Position numbers and translations under genes: made by a program
The notes under the pieces: generated by a model
Seen by the model: only the letters and a program-made list of their open reading frames with translations
Told to the model about the DNA's origin: nothing
The model's database searches: none
Part shown: positions 41,099 through 50,524 of the stretch, piece after piece
How the letters are laid out: the number at the start of each line of letters is the position of its first letter
Numbering within the stretch: position 1 is the first letter of the stretch
NCBI GenBank assembly: GCA_013349405.1
Contig: DUZS01000003.1
Span: forward strand, 1 to 64,000
Source: Desulfuromonadales bacterium
GTDB lineage: Bacteria; Desulfobacterota; Desulfuromonadia; Geobacterales; Pseudopelobacteraceae
Length of the DNA: 64,000 bases
Reading direction: 5' to 3'

Positions 41099-43570
41099 AT
41101 GAATCTTCTCGCAGTTGAAAAGCCTGCCCGCTATATGGGCGGCGAAATGGGCTCCATCCGCAAGGGTAATGCCGATGTACGCTTTGCCCTTGCGTTTCCC
41201 GATGTCTATGAAGTTGGAATGAGCCATCTCGGCCTGCGGATTCTCTATCACATCCTGAACAAAACTGATGGGATTGCCGCAGAGCGCGTTTTTGCTCCCT
41301 GGCCGGATATGGAAGCAGTGTTGCTTGCTGCGAAAAGTCCTCTGGCAACGTTGGAAACGGGCACTCCCCTGGCTGCCTGTGACATTATAGGCGTTACCCT
41401 GCAGTACGAACTTTCTTACACGAATATTCTCTCCATGCTCCGTTTGAGCGGTATTCCGCTCCTTGCCAGCGATCGTAAGGATCCGTTTCCGCTGATCATT
41501 GCCGGCGGTCCGTGCGCCTATAATCCGGAACCGCTGGCACCTTTCTTTGACGCGGTACTGCTGGGTGATGGTGAAGAGGCTACTCTGGAAATAGCTCTTG
41601 CCGCACGGGAGTCAAAAAAAACCGGCGAGAGCAAGGCCCGCCTGCTGGAGCGGCTCTCTGCGATCGAAGGTGTCTATATTCCTTCGTTCTTTGAACCGAA
41701 GTATAATTCCGACGGAACCCTTGCAGAAATCACCCCGCTCAAGCCTGGCTACACCTCTGTCCGCCGCCGTTTTCTCGCCGATCTCAACTCGGCCCCGTAC
41801 CCGGATTCTCCGGTGGTGCCGTTCATGAAGACGATTCATGATCGGGTCGCGGTGGAAATCGCACGAGGCTGCACCCGTGGCTGCCGTTTCTGCCAGGCCG
41901 GTTATGTCTACCGCCCACTGCGCGAACGCTCTCCGGAAACAATTCTGAATGTCATAGAAAAATCGCTCAAAGACACCGGCTATGATGAAATATCGCTGTT
42001 GTCGCTTTCCACCGGCGATTACTCCTGTGTTACCCCGCTGGTAACCGAACTGATGGCGCGCTATGCCGAAGATCGGGTGGCGGTATCGCTCCCCTCCTTG
42101 CGTGTCGGCAGTCTGTCGGACGAGCTGATCGACGCAATAAAAAAAGTACGTAAGACCGGCTTCACCCTGGCACCCGAGGCTGGCAGCGACCGGATGCGGC
42201 GGGTTATCAATAAAGGCATCAGCGAGGCTGATCTTATCTCCGGTGCTGCGGCGATCTACAACGCCGGATGGCGTCTGATCAAGCTCTATTTCATGATCGG
42301 ATTACCGGGCGAAACGGCTGACGACGTAGCCCAGATTGCCACCCTGGCCCGACAGGTTAAAGATCAGGCGAAAAAGAGCGGCGGTTCCGGAGACGTGAAT
42401 GTTGCTGTCAGCACCTTTGTACCGAAAGCTCATACACCGTTCCAGTGGGAAGCGCAGATTTCCTCGCAGGAAACGACTGATCTCCAGTATCAACTGCACT
42501 GCGATCTCAAGAAGCGCAAGCTGAAGTTCAAATGGCAGGATGCGCCGCTTTCGTTCATGGAAGGAGTTTTTGCCCGTGGCGACCGCCGCCTCGCACCGGT
42601 GCTGATCCGTGCCGTTGAGCTTGGCTGTCGCTTTGATGGCTGGCGTGAACATTTCTCCCTGCAACGGTGGCAGCAGGCGTTTGTTGATTGCGGCGTCGAA
42701 CCGGAATGGTATCTCCGCCGTCGTGAACAGGATGAAATTCTGCCGTGGGATCATCTCGACTGCGGAGTAACGAAACAGTTTCTACTGGATGAACGTAAGA
42801 AAGCTCTTGCGGAAGCGGCCACGAAAGATTGTCGTGACGGCAGTTGCAGCGCCTGCGGAGTCTGCGATTTCACCGTCGTGACAAACCGGATCTCCCCGCC
42901 GGCTGATCTTCCGCAGCGCCCCGACAGCACGGCTGGTGAACCGACCGCGGCCCGGATGCGCCTCCGGTTTTCTAAAACCGGCGCCATGAGCTATTTGAGT
43001 CATCTTGAGCTGATAACCGTTTTCACCCGCGCAGTCAGCAGAGGTGACGTACCAATCCTCTTTTCGCTTGGCTTTCATCCGCACCCGCGCTTCTCGTTTG
43101 GCACGGCGACCTCCGTCGGGGTCGAATCACAGGCGGAGTACATGGATATGATGGTTGCTGCCGGTATCGCGCCACGGGAAGTGCAGGAGCGTCTCAATGC
43201 CGTGCTGCCGGAAGGGTTGCGGATTCTCGAAGCAGCAGAGGTTGACGCAAAATCACCATCGCTCTCGACCCTGATTGATGCCACCCGCTATCGGATAACT
43301 ATTGCCGGTGCCGATCAGGGCGAGTTGCTGAAACAATGTGAGCAGTTTTTGGCACATGATGCCTTTGTCATTCAGCGGACAAAAAAGGGCCAGACGCAAA
43401 CTGTTGACCTGAGAGGCGAAACGGTGTCACTCCGTGCTGCTCTGCTGACACTCGAGCTCGTAGCCCGGCGCGGCAAGCCGGTTGAGTTCGCCCGTGCCAT
43501 TACCGGGAACGCTGCGCTTCAGGGTGACGACATCCAGGTCGAGAAGCTGGAAGTTGTCTTTACTCAATAA
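41099..43570 (+). CDS. Radical SAM protein (TIGR03960) fused to a DUF2344 domain
   Basis: An 823-residue two-part protein. The N-terminal part (about 1-600) belongs to the TIGR03960 radical SAM group: a B12-binding-like segment (about 30-170), then the cluster motif CTRGCRFCQAG (about 258-268) and PEAGSDRMRRVINKGI. A Cys group, CRDGSCSACGVC, follows near 580-591. The C-terminal part (about 620-820) is DUF2344 (MRLRFSKTGAMSYLSHLE, then GFHPHPRFSFG). Its substrate is unknown; the gene is often found next to RNase G, as here, which hints at RNA or ribosome modification. The ATG has no clear ribosome site. Confidence 0.85.
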   Translation: MNLLAVEKPARYMGGEMGSIRKGNADVRFALAFPDVYEVGMSHLGLRILYHILNKTDGIAAERVFAPWPDMEAVLLAAKSPLATLETGTPLAACDIIGVTLQYELSYTNILSMLRLSGIPLLASDRKDPFPLIIAGGPCAYNPEPLAPFFDAVLLGDGEEATLEIALAARESKKTGESKARLLERLSAIEGVYIPSFFEPKYNSDGTLAEITPLKPGYTSVRRRFLADLNSAPYPDSPVVPFMKTIHDRVAVEIARGCTRGCRFCQAGYVYRPLRERSPETILNVIEKSLKDTGYDEISLLSLSTGDYSCVTPLVTELMARYAEDRVAVSLPSLRVGSLSDELIDAIKKVRKTGFTLAPEAGSDRMRRVINKGISEADLISGAAAIYNAGWRLIKLYFMIGLPGETADDVAQIATLARQVKDQAKKSGGSGDVNVAVSTFVPKAHTPFQWEAQISSQETTDLQYQLHCDLKKRKLKFKWQDAPLSFMEGVFARGDRRLAPVLIRAVELGCRFDGWREHFSLQRWQQAFVDCGVEPEWYLRRREQDEILPWDHLDCGVTKQFLLDERKKALAEAATKDCRDGSCSACGVCDFTVVTNRISPPADLPQRPDSTAGEPTAARMRLRFSKTGAMSYLSHLELITVFTRAVSRGDVPILFSLGFHPHPRFSFGTATSVGVESQAEYMDMMVAAGIAPREVQERLNAVLPEGLRILEAAEVDAKSPSLSTLIDATRYRITIAGADQGELLKQCEQFLAHDAFVIQRTKKGQTQTVDLRGETVSLRAALLTLELVARRGKPVEFARAITGNAALQGDDIQVEKLEVVFTQ

Positions 43571-43621
43571 TTACGCACATTTTTATAGTTCATATATTTC
43601 ACATAAACGGAGAAAACCACC

Positions 43622-45148
43622 ATGGGAGCTGAGTTAGTTATTAATGCCGCTTCCCACGAAACCCGCATTGCACTCATTGAGAACGGCACTATTGCTGAAC
43701 TGTACATTGAGCGCAGTCGCGAAAAGGGAATTGTGGGGAATATTTACAAAGGGCGCGTTGTCCGCGTATTGCCGGGGATGCAGGCTGCCTTTGTTGATAT
43801 AGGCCTCGAAAAGGCCGCTTTTCTCTATGTGGCTGACGTGTTCGATGCCATTGAAGAGTATGAGTCACTTCTGTATGCCGGAAGTAAAAAGGACGATGAA
43901 CCGACCGAAGAGCAGGAGGGCAACGAACGGCCCGAATTCCGGCCGCTCCATCCTATCGAGGATCTCTTGCAGGAGGGGCAGGAGTTGCTGGTGCAGATAT
44001 CCAAGGAACCGCTCGGCACCAAGGGAGCGCGGATAACCTCTCATATTTCCCTGCCTGGCCGTCATCTTGTCTATATGCCGACGGTCGATCATATCGGCAT
44101 TTCACGACGGATAGAGGATGAGGAAGAGCGCGAACGACTGCGGGAAATTGTTGAACGCCTTAAAAAACCTGGCTCCGGATACATTGTCAGAACCGTTTCG
44201 GAAGGAAAGAGCGAAGAAGACCTGATTGCCGATATGCTCTACCTGACGACCGTGTGGGAAGATATCTCCAGGAGGCAAACAAAGGGTGCGGTGCCGTCAT
44301 TACTGCATTCGGACCTGGATGTCGTGCAGAAAGTGGTGCGGGATATAGTAACGGAGCAGGTCGATAAAATTATTGTCGATTCTCAGGTGGATTACGACCG
44401 GATTGTTCATTTTATCTCAACCTTTGCATCAAAAATGAAATACTCGATTGAGCTCTATGATGAAGACGAGCCGATTTTTGATCATTACGGGCTGGAAGTC
44501 GAAATAAGCCGTGCGTTGGGGAGAAAGGTCTGGCTGAAGTCCGGCGGCTACATTATTATCGAGCAGACTGAAGCGTTGAGTGCCGTCGATGTGAATACCG
44601 GACGGTATGTCGGCAAACATAATCTGGAAGACACCATCTTGAAAACGAATCTGGAGGCGGTAAAAGAGATCGCCTATCAGCTTCGTTTACGCAATATTGG
44701 CGGCATCATCATTATTGACTTTATCGATATGGAAAAAGAGGTCAATCGGGAAAAAGTCTATGGTGCTCTCGAAGAAGCCCTGAGGGTGGACAAGTCAAAA
44801 ACCAATATTCTGAAAATTTCCGAACTGGGTCTCGTGGAGATGACCAGAAAACGCGTTCGTGAGAATATCAGCCGGATGATGTGTGAACCGTGCAGTTACT
44901 GTGAAGGACGGGGTTACATTAAATCAAAAACAACCGTCTGCCATGAAATATTCCGCGAATTACGACGGGAAATGCTTGATATTCGTGGCACCAAAGCGAC
45001 GGTAATCGTACATCCACACGTTGCTGACCTTCTCTATGATGAGGAGCGCCGGGGACTTGAGGAACTGGAAAAGAAATTCAAAAAAAGAATTACCGTGAGG
45101 GCAAAGCCTGGTTTCCATCAGGAACAGTTTGAAATTACGATAAACTGA
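43622..45148 (+). CDS. rng: Ribonuclease G
   Basis: RNase G cuts single-stranded RNA, maturing 16S rRNA 5' ends and starting mRNA decay. The 508-residue protein has the S1 domain (about 35-140, with an acidic insert near 85-100) and a DNase I-like catalytic core with Asp residues in SAVDVNTGRYVGKHN and IIIIDFIDME. The zinc-link pair is in CEPCSYCEGRGYI (about 421-433). It lacks the long RNase E degradosome tail. CGGAG precedes its ATG; it lies 51 bp after the radical SAM gene. Confidence 0.93.
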   Translation: MGAELVINAASHETRIALIENGTIAELYIERSREKGIVGNIYKGRVVRVLPGMQAAFVDIGLEKAAFLYVADVFDAIEEYESLLYAGSKKDDEPTEEQEGNERPEFRPLHPIEDLLQEGQELLVQISKEPLGTKGARITSHISLPGRHLVYMPTVDHIGISRRIEDEEERERLREIVERLKKPGSGYIVRTVSEGKSEEDLIADMLYLTTVWEDISRRQTKGAVPSLLHSDLDVVQKVVRDIVTEQVDKIIVDSQVDYDRIVHFISTFASKMKYSIELYDEDEPIFDHYGLEVEISRALGRKVWLKSGGYIIIEQTEALSAVDVNTGRYVGKHNLEDTILKTNLEAVKEIAYQLRLRNIGGIIIIDFIDMEKEVNREKVYGALEEALRVDKSKTNILKISELGLVEMTRKRVRENISRMMCEPCSYCEGRGYIKSKTTVCHEIFRELRREMLDIRGTKATVIVHPHVADLLYDEERRGLEELEKKFKKRITVRAKPGFHQEQFEITIN

Positions 45149-45249: not shown

Positions 45250-45435
45250 TTACGCGGCTTTACTGTTCAGCCCTTCCTGCTCATAGTGAGCAGAAAAATA
45301 TTCCATCGCTTCACGCATGATATCCGAGATACTCTTGTGAGTTGTTTTCATCAGCGTGTCAAGGTGGTCGCGCTCTTCATCACTCACCCTCATTGAAATG
45401 ACATTGTACCGTGGATTTTCTCTCATCCTTCCCAT
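45250..45435 (-). CDS. Small ribbon-helix-helix (CopG-type) regulator
   Basis: A 61-residue DNA-binding protein: strand NVISMRVSDEERDHLDTL (about 11-28) followed by two helices (SISDIMREAMEYFSAHYEQ), the Arc/MetJ/CopG fold. The start at 45435 follows GAGAGGAG; an ATG 9 bp later is the alternative. There is no toxin gene beside it, so it is not an obvious antitoxin. A near-consensus sigma-54 promoter lies 71 bp ahead of the ATG, an unusual way to drive such a regulator. Confidence 0.72.
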   Translation of the reverse strand: MGRMRENPRYNVISMRVSDEERDHLDTLMKTTHKSISDIMREAMEYFSAHYEQEGLNSKAA

Positions 45436-45505: not shown

Positions 45506-45521
45506 AGCTAATATCGTGCCA
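45506..45521 (-). promoter_or_regulatory. Sigma-54 (-24/-12) promoter of the RHH gene
   Basis: On the minus strand the 16 bases TGGCACGATATTAGCT match the consensus TGGCACGRNNNTTGCW at all but one defined position (A for the second T of TTGC), with the needed GG-N10-GC spacing. The start site would be near 45495, giving a leader of about 60 nt. Confidence 0.75.
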
Positions 45522-45605: not shown

Positions 45606-45623
45606 TGTGTCAAATATGACGCA
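45606..45623. promoter_or_regulatory. 18-bp dyad, possible upstream activator site
   Basis: TGTGTCA-AATA-TGACGCA is a dyad with one mismatch, 111-128 bp upstream of the predicted sigma-54 start site, where enhancer-binding proteins usually bind. A related 18-bp site lies at 48025-48042. Confidence 0.5.
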
Positions 45624-45697: not shown

Positions 45698-47977
45698 TCA
45701 TCGGGGTATGGCTTTTGGACGTCGCACAACTATTATGTCATGCTTTTCGAGAAGGCGATAAAACGTACGTCGCGGCACATTAGCCAAACGGGCCGCCTTC
45801 GCCACGTTGCCGCCGCTCTCGTCAAGATAGCGGGCAATAATATTTTTCTCGGTCCGCACAACCTGCAGCTCCCGCTCTGCCTTAAAAGATACGCGCCGCC
45901 GTTTGGTGTCGAATTCCTGACAGGAATCAAAGGTAGTGGTAAAAACTGTGGGGAGATTTTCCAGGCGGATTACGCCATCTTTTGCCAGAACAGCACACCG
46001 CTCGATGACGTTTTGCATCTCGCGGATATTTCCCGGCCATGCATAGAGCTGCATGGCTTTTACTGCTCGCTCTTCTATGCCGATGATCGTTTTGTTGAGC
46101 TTTTTTCTGGCTTTATCAAGAAAATGCTGCGCCAGTTCAGGCACCGATTCTGCACGTTTTCGCAACGGCGGCAGCTCGATACTGAAAACATTAAGTCGAT
46201 AATAGAGGTCTTCCCGAAACCACCCTTCCCGCACCCCCGTTTCCAGGTCTTTGTTGGTGGCCGCTATCAAGCGGACATCGACCTTGGTCACGGTGACGCC
46301 GCCTACCGGGCGAACCTCACCGAGATCCAGTACCCGCAGAAGTTCCGCCTGAAGCTTTGGCGTAATATCGCCAATTTCATCGAGAAAAATAGTCCCGCCG
46401 TTGGCCGCCTCAAACAGCCCTTTATTATCGGCAACAGCTCCGGTAAACGAACCTTTCTTGTGACCGAATAATTCACTTTCCAGGAGCGAGTCGGTCAAGG
46501 TCGTACAGTTCACCGTCATGAGCGGTTTGTCATTGCGTTGACCCTGACGATGCAGGGCACGGGCGGTCAGCTCTTTCCCGGTGCCGGTCTCACCCCTGAT
46601 CAGTACAGTTGTGGGAGTCGGAGCTACCTGACGAATCAACTCCATTACTTCCCGTATTCCGGGGTCACTGCCGACAATTGCATCATCGCCGGCCTGTCGC
46701 TCCAGCTCCCGCTGCACCAATTCATAGCGCTGCTTCAGATGCCCGCGCTCCTCATCGATCAGCTGCATATTGCGCGGCAGGCACATTTCAATATCTGCAA
46801 GCCCTTGAAATACGGCGACTGCATGCTCCCTGCAGCTGTTGTATCCGCAGGCGCGACAGTTGAGCTCGTCTCCTTGCGTAAATTTATTCGTTGAGTGGAG
46901 GATGCGCTTGATATCATCTTTGCCGGGTGCCGCTAATTTTCTCGATTTATCTGAATATGTTCGTTCAAAGCCTGGCATATGTGCGGAGGAACGATAGTGA
47001 GCTGCGGTGTCATACGCAGGTGTAGTGCTGTTGTGGCATACGATAAGTTTGCGTTTGTAAAAATGATTGAGCTTTTTATCGCGACTCGGACCATCAACAC
47101 AGCCGCCGTCACAGAAACGAAGATCAACAAATGCCGGCGAAATCCGACCGTCCGCCAGGTCGCGAACAATGCCGATAATGTGGGCTTCGCCTTCAGCACT
47201 GATGGTTTCATTGTCCTGAAAGTCAGTCGGAATATCAAAAACCTTCAGAGGGCCACCAGTAAGGGAAAACAGCCGGCCAGAGCCCGGATCAACCCCGTCG
47301 AACGGCATTTCAACCAGAGTGACTGGAGAGACCCCCCTGTTTTTGAGAAGTTTATCGATTTCCTGATAGGTGAGCACCACATCGATTGCTCCGGCAACCT
47401 CTCCCTGAATTTCGAATTTAGCTGCAATGCAGGTACTCACATAAACGACACGGGTATCGTCGCCTCGGATGCTTTTGATGAAGCGCCCCATGGCAATCAT
47501 CGGCGACACGACCGGCATGAGATTCGGAACCAGCGTTGGATAATGGCGTTCAACAAGATCAACAACCGCAGGACAGTGGGTTGAAATCAGCGGTTGTGTG
47601 GAGGAGTTGAGCGTGCCACGGTAGCTCTCAGCAATCATGTGGGCACCGTATGCCCCCTCGTGGACTTCACTGAAGCCGAGGCTTTTCAAGGCAGCGACAA
47701 GCTGTCCGGGGCGCAGTGCATGAAAATAAGCCGGAAATGAACAGCCAAGAACCGCCACGACCGGCGCCCCCGAAGTCAACATCTCCTGGGTTTTGACCAT
47801 TCGATCTACAACTACTTTGGCGTTTTGCGGGCAGCTCAGGCAATTACCGCAGCCGATGCAGCGGTCGTACATGATCTGCGCAAAACCGCCATCTACCTTG
47901 ATGGCCTTGACCGGACAGCTCCGCACGCAGGAATAGCAACGACGGCAGCGCTCTTTATAGGTAATAATTGGTTCCAT
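45698..47977 (-). CDS. Sigma-54 activator with ferredoxin and [FeFe]-hydrogenase-like sensor domains
   Basis: The 759-residue protein begins with two [4Fe-4S] groups: CRRCYSCVRSCP (about 11-22) and CIGCGNCLSCP (about 40-50; last spacing one residue short). A [FeFe]-hydrogenase large-subunit-like domain follows (about 70-350). Its H-cluster motifs are altered but the four cubane ligands seem kept: STHCP, VSTCIAAKFE and RFCDGGCVDG. His replaces the proton-transfer Cys of TSCCP. A further cluster motif, CRACGYNSCREH with a later Cys, lies near 395-425. The rest is an AAA+ sigma-54 domain (about 455-690; GETGTGKE, GSFTGA instead of GAFTGA, FLDEIGD) and a Fis-type HTH (NVAKAARLANVPRRTFYRLL). The start at 47977 follows CGGAGAG. 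Confidence 0.85.
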   Translation of the reverse strand: MEPIITYKERCRRCYSCVRSCPVKAIKVDGGFAQIMYDRCIGCGNCLSCPQNAKVVVDRMVKTQEMLTSGAPVVAVLGCSFPAYFHALRPGQLVAALKSLGFSEVHEGAYGAHMIAESYRGTLNSSTQPLISTHCPAVVDLVERHYPTLVPNLMPVVSPMIAMGRFIKSIRGDDTRVVYVSTCIAAKFEIQGEVAGAIDVVLTYQEIDKLLKNRGVSPVTLVEMPFDGVDPGSGRLFSLTGGPLKVFDIPTDFQDNETISAEGEAHIIGIVRDLADGRISPAFVDLRFCDGGCVDGPSRDKKLNHFYKRKLIVCHNSTTPAYDTAAHYRSSAHMPGFERTYSDKSRKLAAPGKDDIKRILHSTNKFTQGDELNCRACGYNSCREHAVAVFQGLADIEMCLPRNMQLIDEERGHLKQRYELVQRELERQAGDDAIVGSDPGIREVMELIRQVAPTPTTVLIRGETGTGKELTARALHRQGQRNDKPLMTVNCTTLTDSLLESELFGHKKGSFTGAVADNKGLFEAANGGTIFLDEIGDITPKLQAELLRVLDLGEVRPVGGVTVTKVDVRLIAATNKDLETGVREGWFREDLYYRLNVFSIELPPLRKRAESVPELAQHFLDKARKKLNKTIIGIEERAVKAMQLYAWPGNIREMQNVIERCAVLAKDGVIRLENLPTVFTTTFDSCQEFDTKRRRVSFKAERELQVVRTEKNIIARYLDESGGNVAKAARLANVPRRTFYRLLEKHDIIVVRRPKAIPR

Positions 47978-48024
47978 GGCTCTCCGAGGGGAAAATATAG
48001 TATTCATACGCTGATTTCACAATA

Positions 48025-48042
48025 TGTGCAACAAGTGACACA
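48025..48042. promoter_or_regulatory. Second 18-bp site, ahead of the activator gene
   Basis: On the minus strand TGTGTCA-CTTG-TTGCACA: the first half is identical to the dyad at 45606-45623, the spacer is also 4 bp, and the second half agrees at 4 of 7 positions. It lies about 50 bp upstream of the activator ATG and could serve autoregulation. The rest of the 259-bp divergent region is AT-rich, with no further element I can support. Confidence 0.4.
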
Positions 48043-48236: not shown

Positions 48237-48920
48237 ATGTATTTGCTGATTATTGAAGATGAGGAGAAAGCCACTGAACAACTGAAAAAAGGGCTCGCTG
48301 AAGCCAATGTTTTTACTGATGTGGCTAATAACGGACTTCAGGGGCTCATTCTGGCTCAAAAGAAGGAGTATGACCTGATTCTTCTCGACGTCATGTTACC
48401 CGGAGCAAGCGGATGGGAGGTGCTAAAAAAGCTCCGGGCTGGCGGTAGTTCGACCCCGGTTATCATGCTCACGGCGCTTGACTCCGTGAGTGATCGGGTC
48501 ATGGGCTTGCAGCTTGGTGCGGATGATTACCTGATCAAGCCTTTCGCATTTTCTGAGTTGTTGGCCCGCATTCAGTCAGTATTGCGCCGGGGAATTGAGA
48601 GAAAGCCAGATCTTCTCCGGGTTGCAGATCTGGAAGTGGATTTTTTTTCCCACAGCGCAACCCGAGGCGGCAAACGGCTTGACTTGACCAAGAAGGAATT
48701 TGCGCTCCTCTCCCTCCTGATACACCGAACCGGAGAAGCCCTTTCCCGGGACAGGATAGCGGAGCGGATCTGGAATCTTGGCTTCGACAGTAATCTGAAA
48801 ATTGTCGACGTAAAAATTGGTAATCTCCGGGTAAAAGTTGATGATCCTTTCGAAAAGAAGTTGATTCATACTGTTCGTGGCTTTGGGTATGTTCTTGAAG
48901 ACAGGGATGAGGGCATATGA
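48237..48920 (+). CDS. OmpR-family response regulator
   Basis: The 227-residue protein has a receiver domain (about 1-118; IIEDEE, phospho-acceptor Asp in LILLDVMLPGASGW, Lys in YLIKPFAF) and a C-terminal winged helix (about 128-222; LDLTKKEFALLSLLIHRTGE and VDVKIGNLRVKVD). It is closest in style to metal-responsive CusR-type regulators. The sensor kinase gene follows on the same strand after a 164-bp gap. The target is not known. Confidence 0.9.
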   Translation: MYLLIIEDEEKATEQLKKGLAEANVFTDVANNGLQGLILAQKKEYDLILLDVMLPGASGWEVLKKLRAGGSSTPVIMLTALDSVSDRVMGLQLGADDYLIKPFAFSELLARIQSVLRRGIERKPDLLRVADLEVDFFSHSATRGGKRLDLTKKEFALLSLLIHRTGEALSRDRIAERIWNLGFDSNLKIVDVKIGNLRVKVDDPFEKKLIHTVRGFGYVLEDRDEGI

Positions 48921-49084
48921 CCCAATGCGACTTCCCTCTCTCATCAACAGTGTATCTTGCTGAGGCATACATGAATCTGATCAAAAGAGAAAGGGTATAG
49001 TGCTATCGTATCTGACGGAGACGGCAATTCCCGCAAGATCTTTTGCAAAGAAGATTTCAGCATGGCCAGGAATGAGGTTTAGCA

Positions 49085-50524
49085 ATGTTCTATAAGTTCA
49101 CGACCTTTGGCATGCCAGCCATGCTGTCACGGAGAGGGGGGGAATACCGCTCAATTGCCAATAAAATTGCCATCCTGCACACGCTCGCAGTCTTCTTCTC
49201 GGTCTCCTTCGCTTCGGTGCTCCTCTACAAAAATCTGCTTGATCATCTGAACCAGGCTAATTCGAAGCAAATCCGGGAAGAAATCGCCTCCGTCAAAACC
49301 ATGCTTATGTCACCAACCGGTTCGGAACGCCTCGGTTTTGAGATCGCAGCAGAGTCGCGCGAGTCGGAGGCGCACAAGGTTTTTATCAGGGTGATAGACC
49401 CGAACGGCAAGACTGTCAGGGAAAGTTTCGGACTACATGCAATAATTCCCGCACATCTTTTCCACCGCTCAGATGCCGGTCCGGGCGCCCAAAAATTTCG
49501 AACCCCTTCCGGGAATTTGTTCCTTCTGGAGAGCTGCCTCCTTACTGAAAATAGCAGCATCGGCATTGGGCAGATTCAAATAGCAATGGACATTAGTGAT
49601 GACGAGATTTTTGCCAGGAAAGTCATGGTCGCTCTCGTGGTGTTTTCCCTTTTTGGGCTTTTATTCGCTGTGTTCAGTGCTTTTTACATAATTCGCATGT
49701 GTTTAATGCCACTCAATGAAATATCCGATAAAATCAAAGATATTACGGAAACGAACCTTGATATGCGCCTCGATGTGTCGCTTTTACCTGAGGAGATGAA
49801 ATCTCTCGGTGAGTCTTTCAACATAATGCTTAGTCGCATGGAAAACTCATTTAAAAAACTGACCCAATATTCTGAAAATCTTGCCCATGAATTGCGGACA
49901 CCACTCAATAATCTCATACTGGAAGCAGGTATTGCCCTTTCCCGTCAACGTACTGCGGAGGAGTACCAAAAAGTTATCAACTCCTCCATGGAAGAATATG
50001 ATCGCCTTTCACTGCTCATTGACCGGCTCCTTTTTCTCGTACGGGCCGACAACAACCAGCACAGGCTTGAAATGAAAAAGATCAATGTCCTTGAAGTATT
50101 AGAGAATATTGTCGAATTTTACTCAGAAGCGGTGTCTGATAAGGCCATTACTGTCACTATTGTCGGAACGGCGTCACTCATGGCCGATCTGGTACTGTTC
50201 AACAGGGCAGTCAGCAATCTTTTTTTCAATGCCCTCAAATATACGGAACAGGGTGGCTCTATTGTTCTTGTCATAGAGCAAAACAACAACAGTATCGAAA
50301 TTTCAGTGCAGGATACCGGATGCGGTATTGATCCTCTGCTGCTGCCGAAAATATTTGACCGCTATTTCTGGGTAGAGTCCACCAGGCAGAAAGATCACAA
50401 AGGTACCGGACTCGGACTTGATATTGTAAAAGCCATCATGAAGCTTCATGGCGGGAATGTAGAAATCCAGAGCGAACTGGGCAGAGGGACAACGGTGAAG
50501 TTGCAGTTTCCCCTGGTTGCCTGA
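49085..50524 (+). CDS. Membrane sensor histidine kinase (CusS-like)
   Basis: The 479-residue kinase has membrane helices at about 28-50 and 178-202 around a periplasmic domain of about 125 residues. A HAMP domain follows (about 203-255), then the phospho-acceptor helix LAHELRTPLNNL (His about 268) and an ATP domain with NLFFNALKYT, DTGCGI and KGTGLGLDIV. The order regulator then kinase is typical of the heavy-metal sensor group; the ligand is not readable from the sequence. Confidence 0.88.
   Translation: MFYKFTTFGMPAMLSRRGGEYRSIANKIAILHTLAVFFSVSFASVLLYKNLLDHLNQANSKQIREEIASVKTMLMSPTGSERLGFEIAAESRESEAHKVFIRVIDPNGKTVRESFGLHAIIPAHLFHRSDAGPGAQKFRTPSGNLFLLESCLLTENSSIGIGQIQIAMDISDDEIFARKVMVALVVFSLFGLLFAVFSAFYIIRMCLMPLNEISDKIKDITETNLDMRLDVSLLPEEMKSLGESFNIMLSRMENSFKKLTQYSENLAHELRTPLNNLILEAGIALSRQRTAEEYQKVINSSMEEYDRLSLLIDRLLFLVRADNNQHRLEMKKINVLEVLENIVEFYSEAVSDKAITVTIVGTASLMADLVLFNRAVSNLFFNALKYTEQGGSIVLVIEQNNNSIEISVQDTGCGIDPLLLPKIFDRYFWVESTRQKDHKGTGLGLDIVKAIMKLHGGNVEIQSELGRGTTVKLQFPLVA

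Follow-up and report, generated by a model that had tools for sequence, protein, structure and literature searches.

A sigma-54 activator with a hydrogenase-like iron-sulfur sensor half and a probable adjacent target gene in a Desulfuromonadales bacterium

We analyzed a 64,000-nucleotide stretch of DNA from a Desulfuromonadales bacterium (assembly GCA_013349405.1, contig DUZS01000003.1, positions 1 to 64,000 of the forward strand; hereafter the window) and focused on a regulator gene on its minus strand (45698..47977) whose product carries a hydrogenase-like sensor half rich in iron-sulfur (FeS) clusters. Judged from sequence, the protein is likely to be a one-component sigma-54 activator of an FeS-based redox or oxygen type, which uses an emptied hydrogenase fold to switch on an adjacent second-tier regulator and probably also its own gene. 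A preliminary description of the locus, confined to the regulator itself, had proposed the direct fusion of such a sensor half to a sigma-54 activator; Pfam profiles bear out this architecture, and the locus extends beyond that description in having conserved regulatory DNA and a gene for a 61-residue ribbon-helix-helix (RHH)-like protein next to the regulator.

The reading frame is open up to an ATG at 48007, corresponding to 769 residues, but the start at 47977 (Met11, 759 residues) is probably right, as the invariant columns among 12 family members compared begin at M11. Pfam resolves, in this order, a ferredoxin-like domain with eight cysteines (residues 18-68, 47804..47956; Fer4_10 at 18-58; C21, C24, C27 and C31, followed by C50, C53, C56 and C59), an [FeFe]-hydrogenase-like domain also seen in the predicted model (Fe_hyd_lg_C, PF02906, residues 83-307, 47087..47761; E 1.1e-43), a PF04060 FeS motif of the Cx2Cx4Cx16C form (residues 382-411, 46775..46864; C384-x2-C387-x4-C392-x16-C409), a Sigma54_activat AAA+ domain with a GSFTGA loop (residues 444-611, 46175..46678; E 3.5e-67), an AAA lid and a Fis-type helix-turn-helix (HTH) domain (HTH_8, residues 719-755, 45743..45853), all on the minus strand. 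The protein therefore combines the AAA+ domain, GAFTGA-type loop and HTH that define a sigma-54 activator (bacterial enhancer-binding protein), and no PAS domain, a trait of group C HydS sensors, was matched by Pfam at E 0.001. Among the NCBIfam matches listed (25 of 83), the best were sigma-54 activators over the C-terminal half, with scores under the curated cut-offs, and the model for monomeric (B1) [FeFe] hydrogenases matched residues 26-309, likewise below its cut-off. Each of the motifs named in the preliminary description (STHCP, STCIAAK, CDGGC, CxxCxxCxxCP and GSFTGA) was found in the regulator. In an alignment of 58 rows, comprising 36 sigma-54-type proteins (the window's included) and 22 of other architectures, the short ferredoxin spacing CxxCxxCxxCP proved to be a one-residue deletion shared by 11 of the 36 sigma-54-type rows, the remaining 25 and all 22 other rows having the usual CxxCxxCxxxC. 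The GSFTGA loop occurs in 30/31 fetched loci of the genus (L038 has GAFTGA), either form being common in the rest of the family.

Structure prediction of the sensor half returned a model that matches solved [FeFe]-hydrogenases. All 16 cluster cysteines are invariant in the alignment, and the four that would hold the H-cluster cubane (C145, C193, C299 and C303) are kept in 58/58 rows, so that the random loss envisaged in the preliminary description as a counter-indication did not appear. Its two reported substitutions were likewise found to be family traits: H144 sits at the position of the proton-transfer cysteine, C299 of the hydrogenase CpI (His in 35 and Gln in 1 of the 36 sigma-54-type rows), and S191 at that of CpI M353 (Ser in 36/36). 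A further position also departs from the catalytic enzymes. CpI K358 has a role near a cyanide of the 2Fe centre; when placed by alignment against solved hydrogenases, its counterpart in the regulator is A196, and the sigma-54-type rows have Ala (17), Gly (17), Cys (1) or Ser (1) but never Lys (0/36), compared to Lys in 17 of the 22 rows of other architectures. The five remaining rows, all from one family (L054, L057 and L063-L065, with L054 a histidine kinase by Pfam), have His or Gln at this position; three of the five come from genomes that lack HydG over cut-off, and they may perhaps represent a second sensor family devoid of an H-cluster.

The 2Fe subcluster of the H-cluster needs HydE, HydF and HydG, whereas the cubane uses the ordinary FeS machinery (PMC6212873), making FeS clusters likely and an H-cluster unlikely where these maturases are missing. 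We inspected the maturase complement, as the preliminary description had suggested. In the window's own genome (96.06% complete), in which the regulator is the single Fe_hyd_lg_C match, HydG had no match at E 0.001 and HydF only partial ones (the best scoring 76 bits where the cut-off is 325.55); HydE was not searched. HydG over cut-off was absent from all 39 genomes of the genus, the one weaker match reaching 196 bits (G035). Across a phylum sample of 395 genomes, 80 of them with HydG over cut-off, it was found in 0/12 genomes with the sigma-54-type protein, as compared to 38/67 genomes with other relatives (E 1e-10). The 12 were recognized by the GxFTGx loop in fetched loci, two of them (L049 and L051) by Pfam; for the 67, 18 loci were fetched (L052-L069), none with a GxFTGx loop, the loci of the other 49 genomes not being fetched. 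A complete H-cluster in the regulator thus appears unlikely, and its sensor resembles a hydrogenase fold that has been emptied and now carries ordinary FeS clusters. The proposal that H2 or CO is sensed by an H-cluster that is slow or non-catalytic was accordingly rejected as the principal interpretation, given the absence of HydG over cut-off and the lost lysine, while the redox sensing put forward with it stays plausible through FeS clusters only.

The architecture is not a chance product of one genome, because 38/39 genomes of the genus, the window's own included, carry the regulator gene (all but G028), and the other copies are 74-90% identical over the N-terminal half. Five of these genomes (G002, G005, G025, G035 and G036) have an additional copy with 51-53% identity along almost the full N-terminal query, and a sixth has a fragment of one. 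From a scan of named genomes we kept the best 80 of 327 relatives. Among these, 69 (L100-L168) have a downstream sigma-54 domain and carry record titles such as Geobacteraceae, Geobacter, Geomonas, Oryzomonas, Pelotalea, Desulfuromonas, Malonomonas and Desulfuromonadales, together with unclassified Deltaproteobacteria and one metagenome-assembled genome (MAG) titled Chloroflexi; the other 11 (L169-L179) come from other phyla, and none has a sigma-54 match. Going by record titles, the sigma-54-type family belongs to the class Desulfuromonadia, though it may spread more widely, these being the best 80 of 327 relatives. In a tree of the 58 aligned rows, all 36 sigma-54-type rows form one clade with support of 100/100. 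In 277 sampled genomes of the class, a strong regulator match was counted by hand in 198, the sigma-54 half not being checked genome by genome in this or the other genome-wide regulator counts for these 277.

Downstream of the regulator stop, the window holds, in order, an enhancer dyad, a -24/-12 element and the small RHH-like gene, all on the minus strand. The dyad TGCGTCATATTTGACACA (45606..45623) deviates by one mismatch from the family pattern TGTGNCA-N4-TKNCACA, and its start lies 102 bp from the start of the -24 element of the promoter TGGCACGATATTAGCT (45506..45521), which alone among sites of the window matches TGGCACGNNNNTTGCW with no more than 1 mismatch. Allowing 2 mismatches gives 9 sites where shuffling predicts 13, so that the weight of the promoter at 45506 rests on its conservation. 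A second dyad, TGTGTCACTTGTTGCACA (48025..48042, minus strand), is located upstream of the regulator's own start and probably mediates autoregulation. Over 41 loci, two of which have less than 100 nt of downstream sequence, a dyad within 2 mismatches precedes the regulator start in 36, and a downstream dyad of the same stringency is paired with a -24/-12 site (at most 1 mismatch) in 32.

To follow this arrangement across the family, we split the named loci by hand after inspection into an inner group (L100-L142 and L161-L166; 49 loci, 48 after dropping L108 at a contig end) and an outer group (L143-L160, L167 and L168; 20 loci, 19 without L158), a division that the 58-row tree supports for the rows it holds. 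In the inner group, an exact -24/-12 element is present on the coding strand in 44/48 loci and on the other strand in none (0.10 expected by shuffling), a dyad within 1 mismatch in 43/48 (0.15 expected), and an RHH gene in 46/48 (not in L106, nor in L163, where the regulator frame is broken), with no small-RNA terminator in any. The outer group has the exact promoter element in 13/19 and the dyad in 15/19, and its downstream element is of another kind, the RHH gene being found in 0/19 and a small-RNA terminator in 17/19 (all but L146 and L160). L146 is a second-copy locus from the same MAG as L102 and has neither element downstream. Among 44 inner loci, the start of the dyad lies 101-105 bp from that of the -24 element in 25, 111-117 bp in 18 and 142 bp in one; in the outer group the best-scoring dyad mostly lies farther away, up to 205 bp, and many loci have two, the nearer at about 90-125 bp. 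Scanning the window's own genome at 1 mismatch yielded 33 strand matches to the dyad at 20 places, compared to 11 strand matches for a control pattern, and of the 18 dyad places fetched, only that at 45606 had an exact -24/-12 element at a promoter-like distance. At another of these places (L073) an exact -24/-12 element overlaps the dyad, with a 1-mismatch element at 225 bp.

The probable target at 45250..45435 (minus strand) encodes the 61-residue RHH-like protein, which ends in KAA. An alignment of 31 rows, drawn from 42 distinct locus sequences and the window's own, has 20 invariant columns; the proteins end, after a variable stretch, in AA (30/31) or AV (1/31), a terminus that we take to resemble a ClpXP-type degron. 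Its single-chain model consists of two helices with no strand assigned (pLDDT 80.8). Strong matches to the RHH-like protein (E <= 2e-17) occur in 9 genomes of the 395-genome sample, all of which carry the regulator with the match adjoining it. A toxin-antitoxin reading of this gene was set aside, there being no ORF of at least 100 residues listed between the RHH and RNase G genes (shorter ones were not searched). A palindrome, GTGTATAC, recurs in some members of the genus (L013, L019, L024, L031, L032 and others), beside dyads and just past the RHH promoter, and is a possible operator of the RHH protein. We keep TGTATAC in this role as a lead, since it is present in only 11/44 promoters and 9/44 upstream regions; a combined promoter and TGTATAC pattern (up to 3 mismatches) gave 20 matches where the control had 10; these did not include the window site, and L088 was the single match at 1 mismatch.

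The stretch behind the promoter in the outer lineages ends in a terminator hairpin whose CUCUCUCC loop is nearly invariant. This candidate small RNA measures 89-114 nt from its assumed start in 16 of 18 loci inspected (L168 gave 183 and was dropped, and L160 gave none), and RNAalifold predicts 9 pairs, 4 of them with double-sided changes. The loop could pair with a Shine-Dalgarno-like GGAGAG. Rfam had no match at gathering scores in the 14 loci searched. Candidate loci recorded downstream of the regulator are L143-L157 (except L146), L159, L167 and L200-L239, of which L230-L232 are taken up below. A model of the RNA (R1), built from outer loci, matched 99 of the 277 class genomes at E 0.01, 86 of them strongly (at least 46.9 bits); given its origin, some of these positives may be its own training genomes. 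Among 80 outer genomes whose regulator match reaches E <= 1e-100, 78 carry the small RNA, the other two (G464 and G471) having weak matches only. In the window's order, 118 genomes (hand count) match the regulator at E <= 1e-60, none of them with a strong small-RNA match, and five genomes of the order have small-RNA matches at E 0.007-0.01. At the 30 best small-RNA loci, a sigma-54 activator-domain match and a -24/-12 element (at most 1 mismatch) were both located upstream in 30/30. That the element is a leader attenuator of ptsP and not a free small RNA is unlikely, because it persists when the next gene differs, standing before yebC/ruvC or another gene (names read from translations).

Taking the domains, the predicted fold, the invariant ligands, the absence of HydG over cut-off and the conserved DNA arrangement as observed, we propose that the sensor carries [4Fe-4S] clusters, two in the ferredoxin domain, one at the old H-cluster cubane site and one at the Cx2Cx4Cx16C motif, and would lack an organometallic 2Fe centre. 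The signal would be the redox state of the clusters, their occupancy or their damage by oxygen, and it may reach the AAA+ domain by way of the C-terminal FeS motif and then the helix following it. Relay models call for caution, since the C-terminal cluster of TamHydS was found to be unresponsive to H2 (PMC13104023). As active oligomers, the protein would then occupy the TGTGNCA-N4-TKNCACA dyad, which lies about 102 bp before the -24/-12 promoter, and turn on a single neighbouring gene, presumably that of the RHH-like protein here as second tier, and the dyad before the regulator gene would allow autoregulation. In the outer lineages, the same enhancer and promoter precede the small-RNA candidate of about 100 nt.

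Several observations weigh against this model. HydG absence relies on one profile and partly on draft genomes, with HydE outside the search, and sub-cut-off HydG-profile matches exist (208 bits in G239 besides that in G035). Neither this absence nor the loss of the lysine is peculiar to the regulator family, as 29/67 genomes with other relatives also lack HydG over cut-off and the five rows of another family also lack the lysine. The RHH assignment stays under both Pfam cut-offs (RHH_1, 19.3 bits against 20.5; DUF6290, 22.5 against 27), fold matches are weak, the best being a ParD antitoxin at E 4.1, and 3/12 sigma-54-type genomes (G262, G362 and G380) have no strong RHH match; weaker RHH matches alone occur in 5 of the 395 sample genomes, including two of these three. 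Finally, 8/86 genomes with a strong small-RNA match have no regulator match at E <= 1e-100, although G548 has a weaker one, and loci L230-L232 have the small RNA and promoter with no regulator match within the 8.1 kb read. There, the order is two ABC-transporter ATPase genes (dpp type by reading), promoter, small RNA and a ptsP-like gene, as read directly in L230 and L232, the ORFs of L231 not being listed.

Because no regulator match lies within that distance, another activator may serve the promoter of L230-L232. Extended to the whole family, with a different sigma-54 activator acting on the adjacent promoter and the hydrogenase-like regulator controlling distant genes, this idea draws on the same 8/86 genomes, but we consider it very improbable, since dyad, promoter and target adjoin the regulator in both lineages, the small RNA accompanies it in 78/80 outer-lineage genomes, and the same dyad precedes the regulator gene itself in 36/41 loci. 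Equally slim are the chances that, in the manner proposed for group C/D HydS, a real but slow H-cluster drives transcription in response to H2 or CO. The domain layout and Cx2Cx4Cx16C motif do correspond to HydS (PMC8163306), all four cubane cysteines are kept and the serine at the M353 position is that of TamHydS; against this stand the missing HydG (0/39 genus genomes and 0/12 sampled sigma-54-type genomes), the lack of HydF above cut-off in the own genome and a K358 position that is not Lys in 36/36 rows.

A somewhat better case, though still an unlikely one, can be made for clusters that are mainly structural, with the emptied cavity, lined by His144 and Ser191, binding a putative small ligand or a different cluster as the real signal. 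The conservation of H144 (35/36) and S191 (36/36) would fit such a pocket, for which the [2Fe-2S] cluster proposed for yeast Nar1 offers a precedent (PMC12621388), yet the 16 invariant cysteines suit a redox chain equally well. We retain the FeS-based redox or oxygen sensor as the preferred reading.

The regulator resembles known systems in parts. With group C/D HydS proteins (TmHydS and TamHydS; PMC8163306, PMC11803613), compared here by published description and not by direct sequence alignment, it shares N-terminal ferredoxin clusters, the hydrogenase domain, the C-terminal Cx2Cx4Cx16C motif, the loss of the CpI C299 cysteine and, with TamHydS, the serine at M353. It differs in its output, a sigma-54 AAA+ domain and Fis HTH instead of PAS or none, in the absence of HydG over cut-off from sampled genomes and in lacking a lysine at the K358 position; published accounts of groups C/D report PAS domains, or genes for kinases and regulators nearby. 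NARF/Nar1, likewise compared by description, is a hydrogenase-like protein that keeps [4Fe-4S] sites without the 2Fe cofactor (PMC12621388), a likeness that the regulator may share, to judge by the absent HydG and lost lysine, but it is a eukaryotic FeS-assembly protein without transcription output. The C-terminal half matches the NifA (E 1.2e-106) and NorR (E 1.2e-98) profiles, and the enhancer and -24/-12 arrangement is also of this kind, whereas the sensor is hydrogenase-like and the scores lie below both curated cut-offs. Hydrogenase-domain histidine kinases of other families in the same phylum (L054, L056 and L069) are 30-38% identical over the N-terminal half, but have a HisKA/HATPase output; L056 and L069 keep the lysine while L054 does not, and HydG over cut-off occurs in the genomes of L054 and L056 but not of L069. 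As far as abstracts and passages show, the open-access literature, which leaves aside most subscription journals, yielded no account of a sigma-54 activator with a hydrogenase domain; such proteins may well appear in genome annotations simply as sigma-54 regulators. A term search of the G. sulfurreducens RpoN regulon paper did not find 'ribbon', 'CopG' or 'Fis family'.

Upstream of the regulator, and divergent from it, lie genes for a response regulator and sensor kinase of the heavy-metal type, which resemble CopR/CopS by NCBIfam (48237-50524, plus strand). Convergent with the RHH gene are a TIGR03960/TIGR03936 radical SAM fusion and, after it, a gene of the RNase E/G family (41099-45148, plus strand).

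For sensory [FeFe]-hydrogenases, there is little direct physiological evidence for a role (PMC8924675). As the hydrogenase-like sensor of this family would be wired straight to a promoter, its signal should be readable with a reporter. On an evolutionary scale, we find it an evenly balanced proposition that, in an ancestor of Desulfuromonadia-type lineages, a hydrogenase site was emptied of its 2Fe centre and became an FeS redox or oxygen sensor, perhaps with a new cofactor near His144, on a sigma-54 activator, and that the enhancer-promoter output then stayed fixed while the effector was exchanged between the 61-residue RHH-like protein and a sigma-54-driven small RNA with the CUCUCUCC loop. 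The regulator would be a bacterial case, Geobacter relatives included, of a hydrogenase fold that is kept, most likely, without its active metal centre, and its family would offer a natural example of one switch in which an RNA effector stands in for a protein effector.
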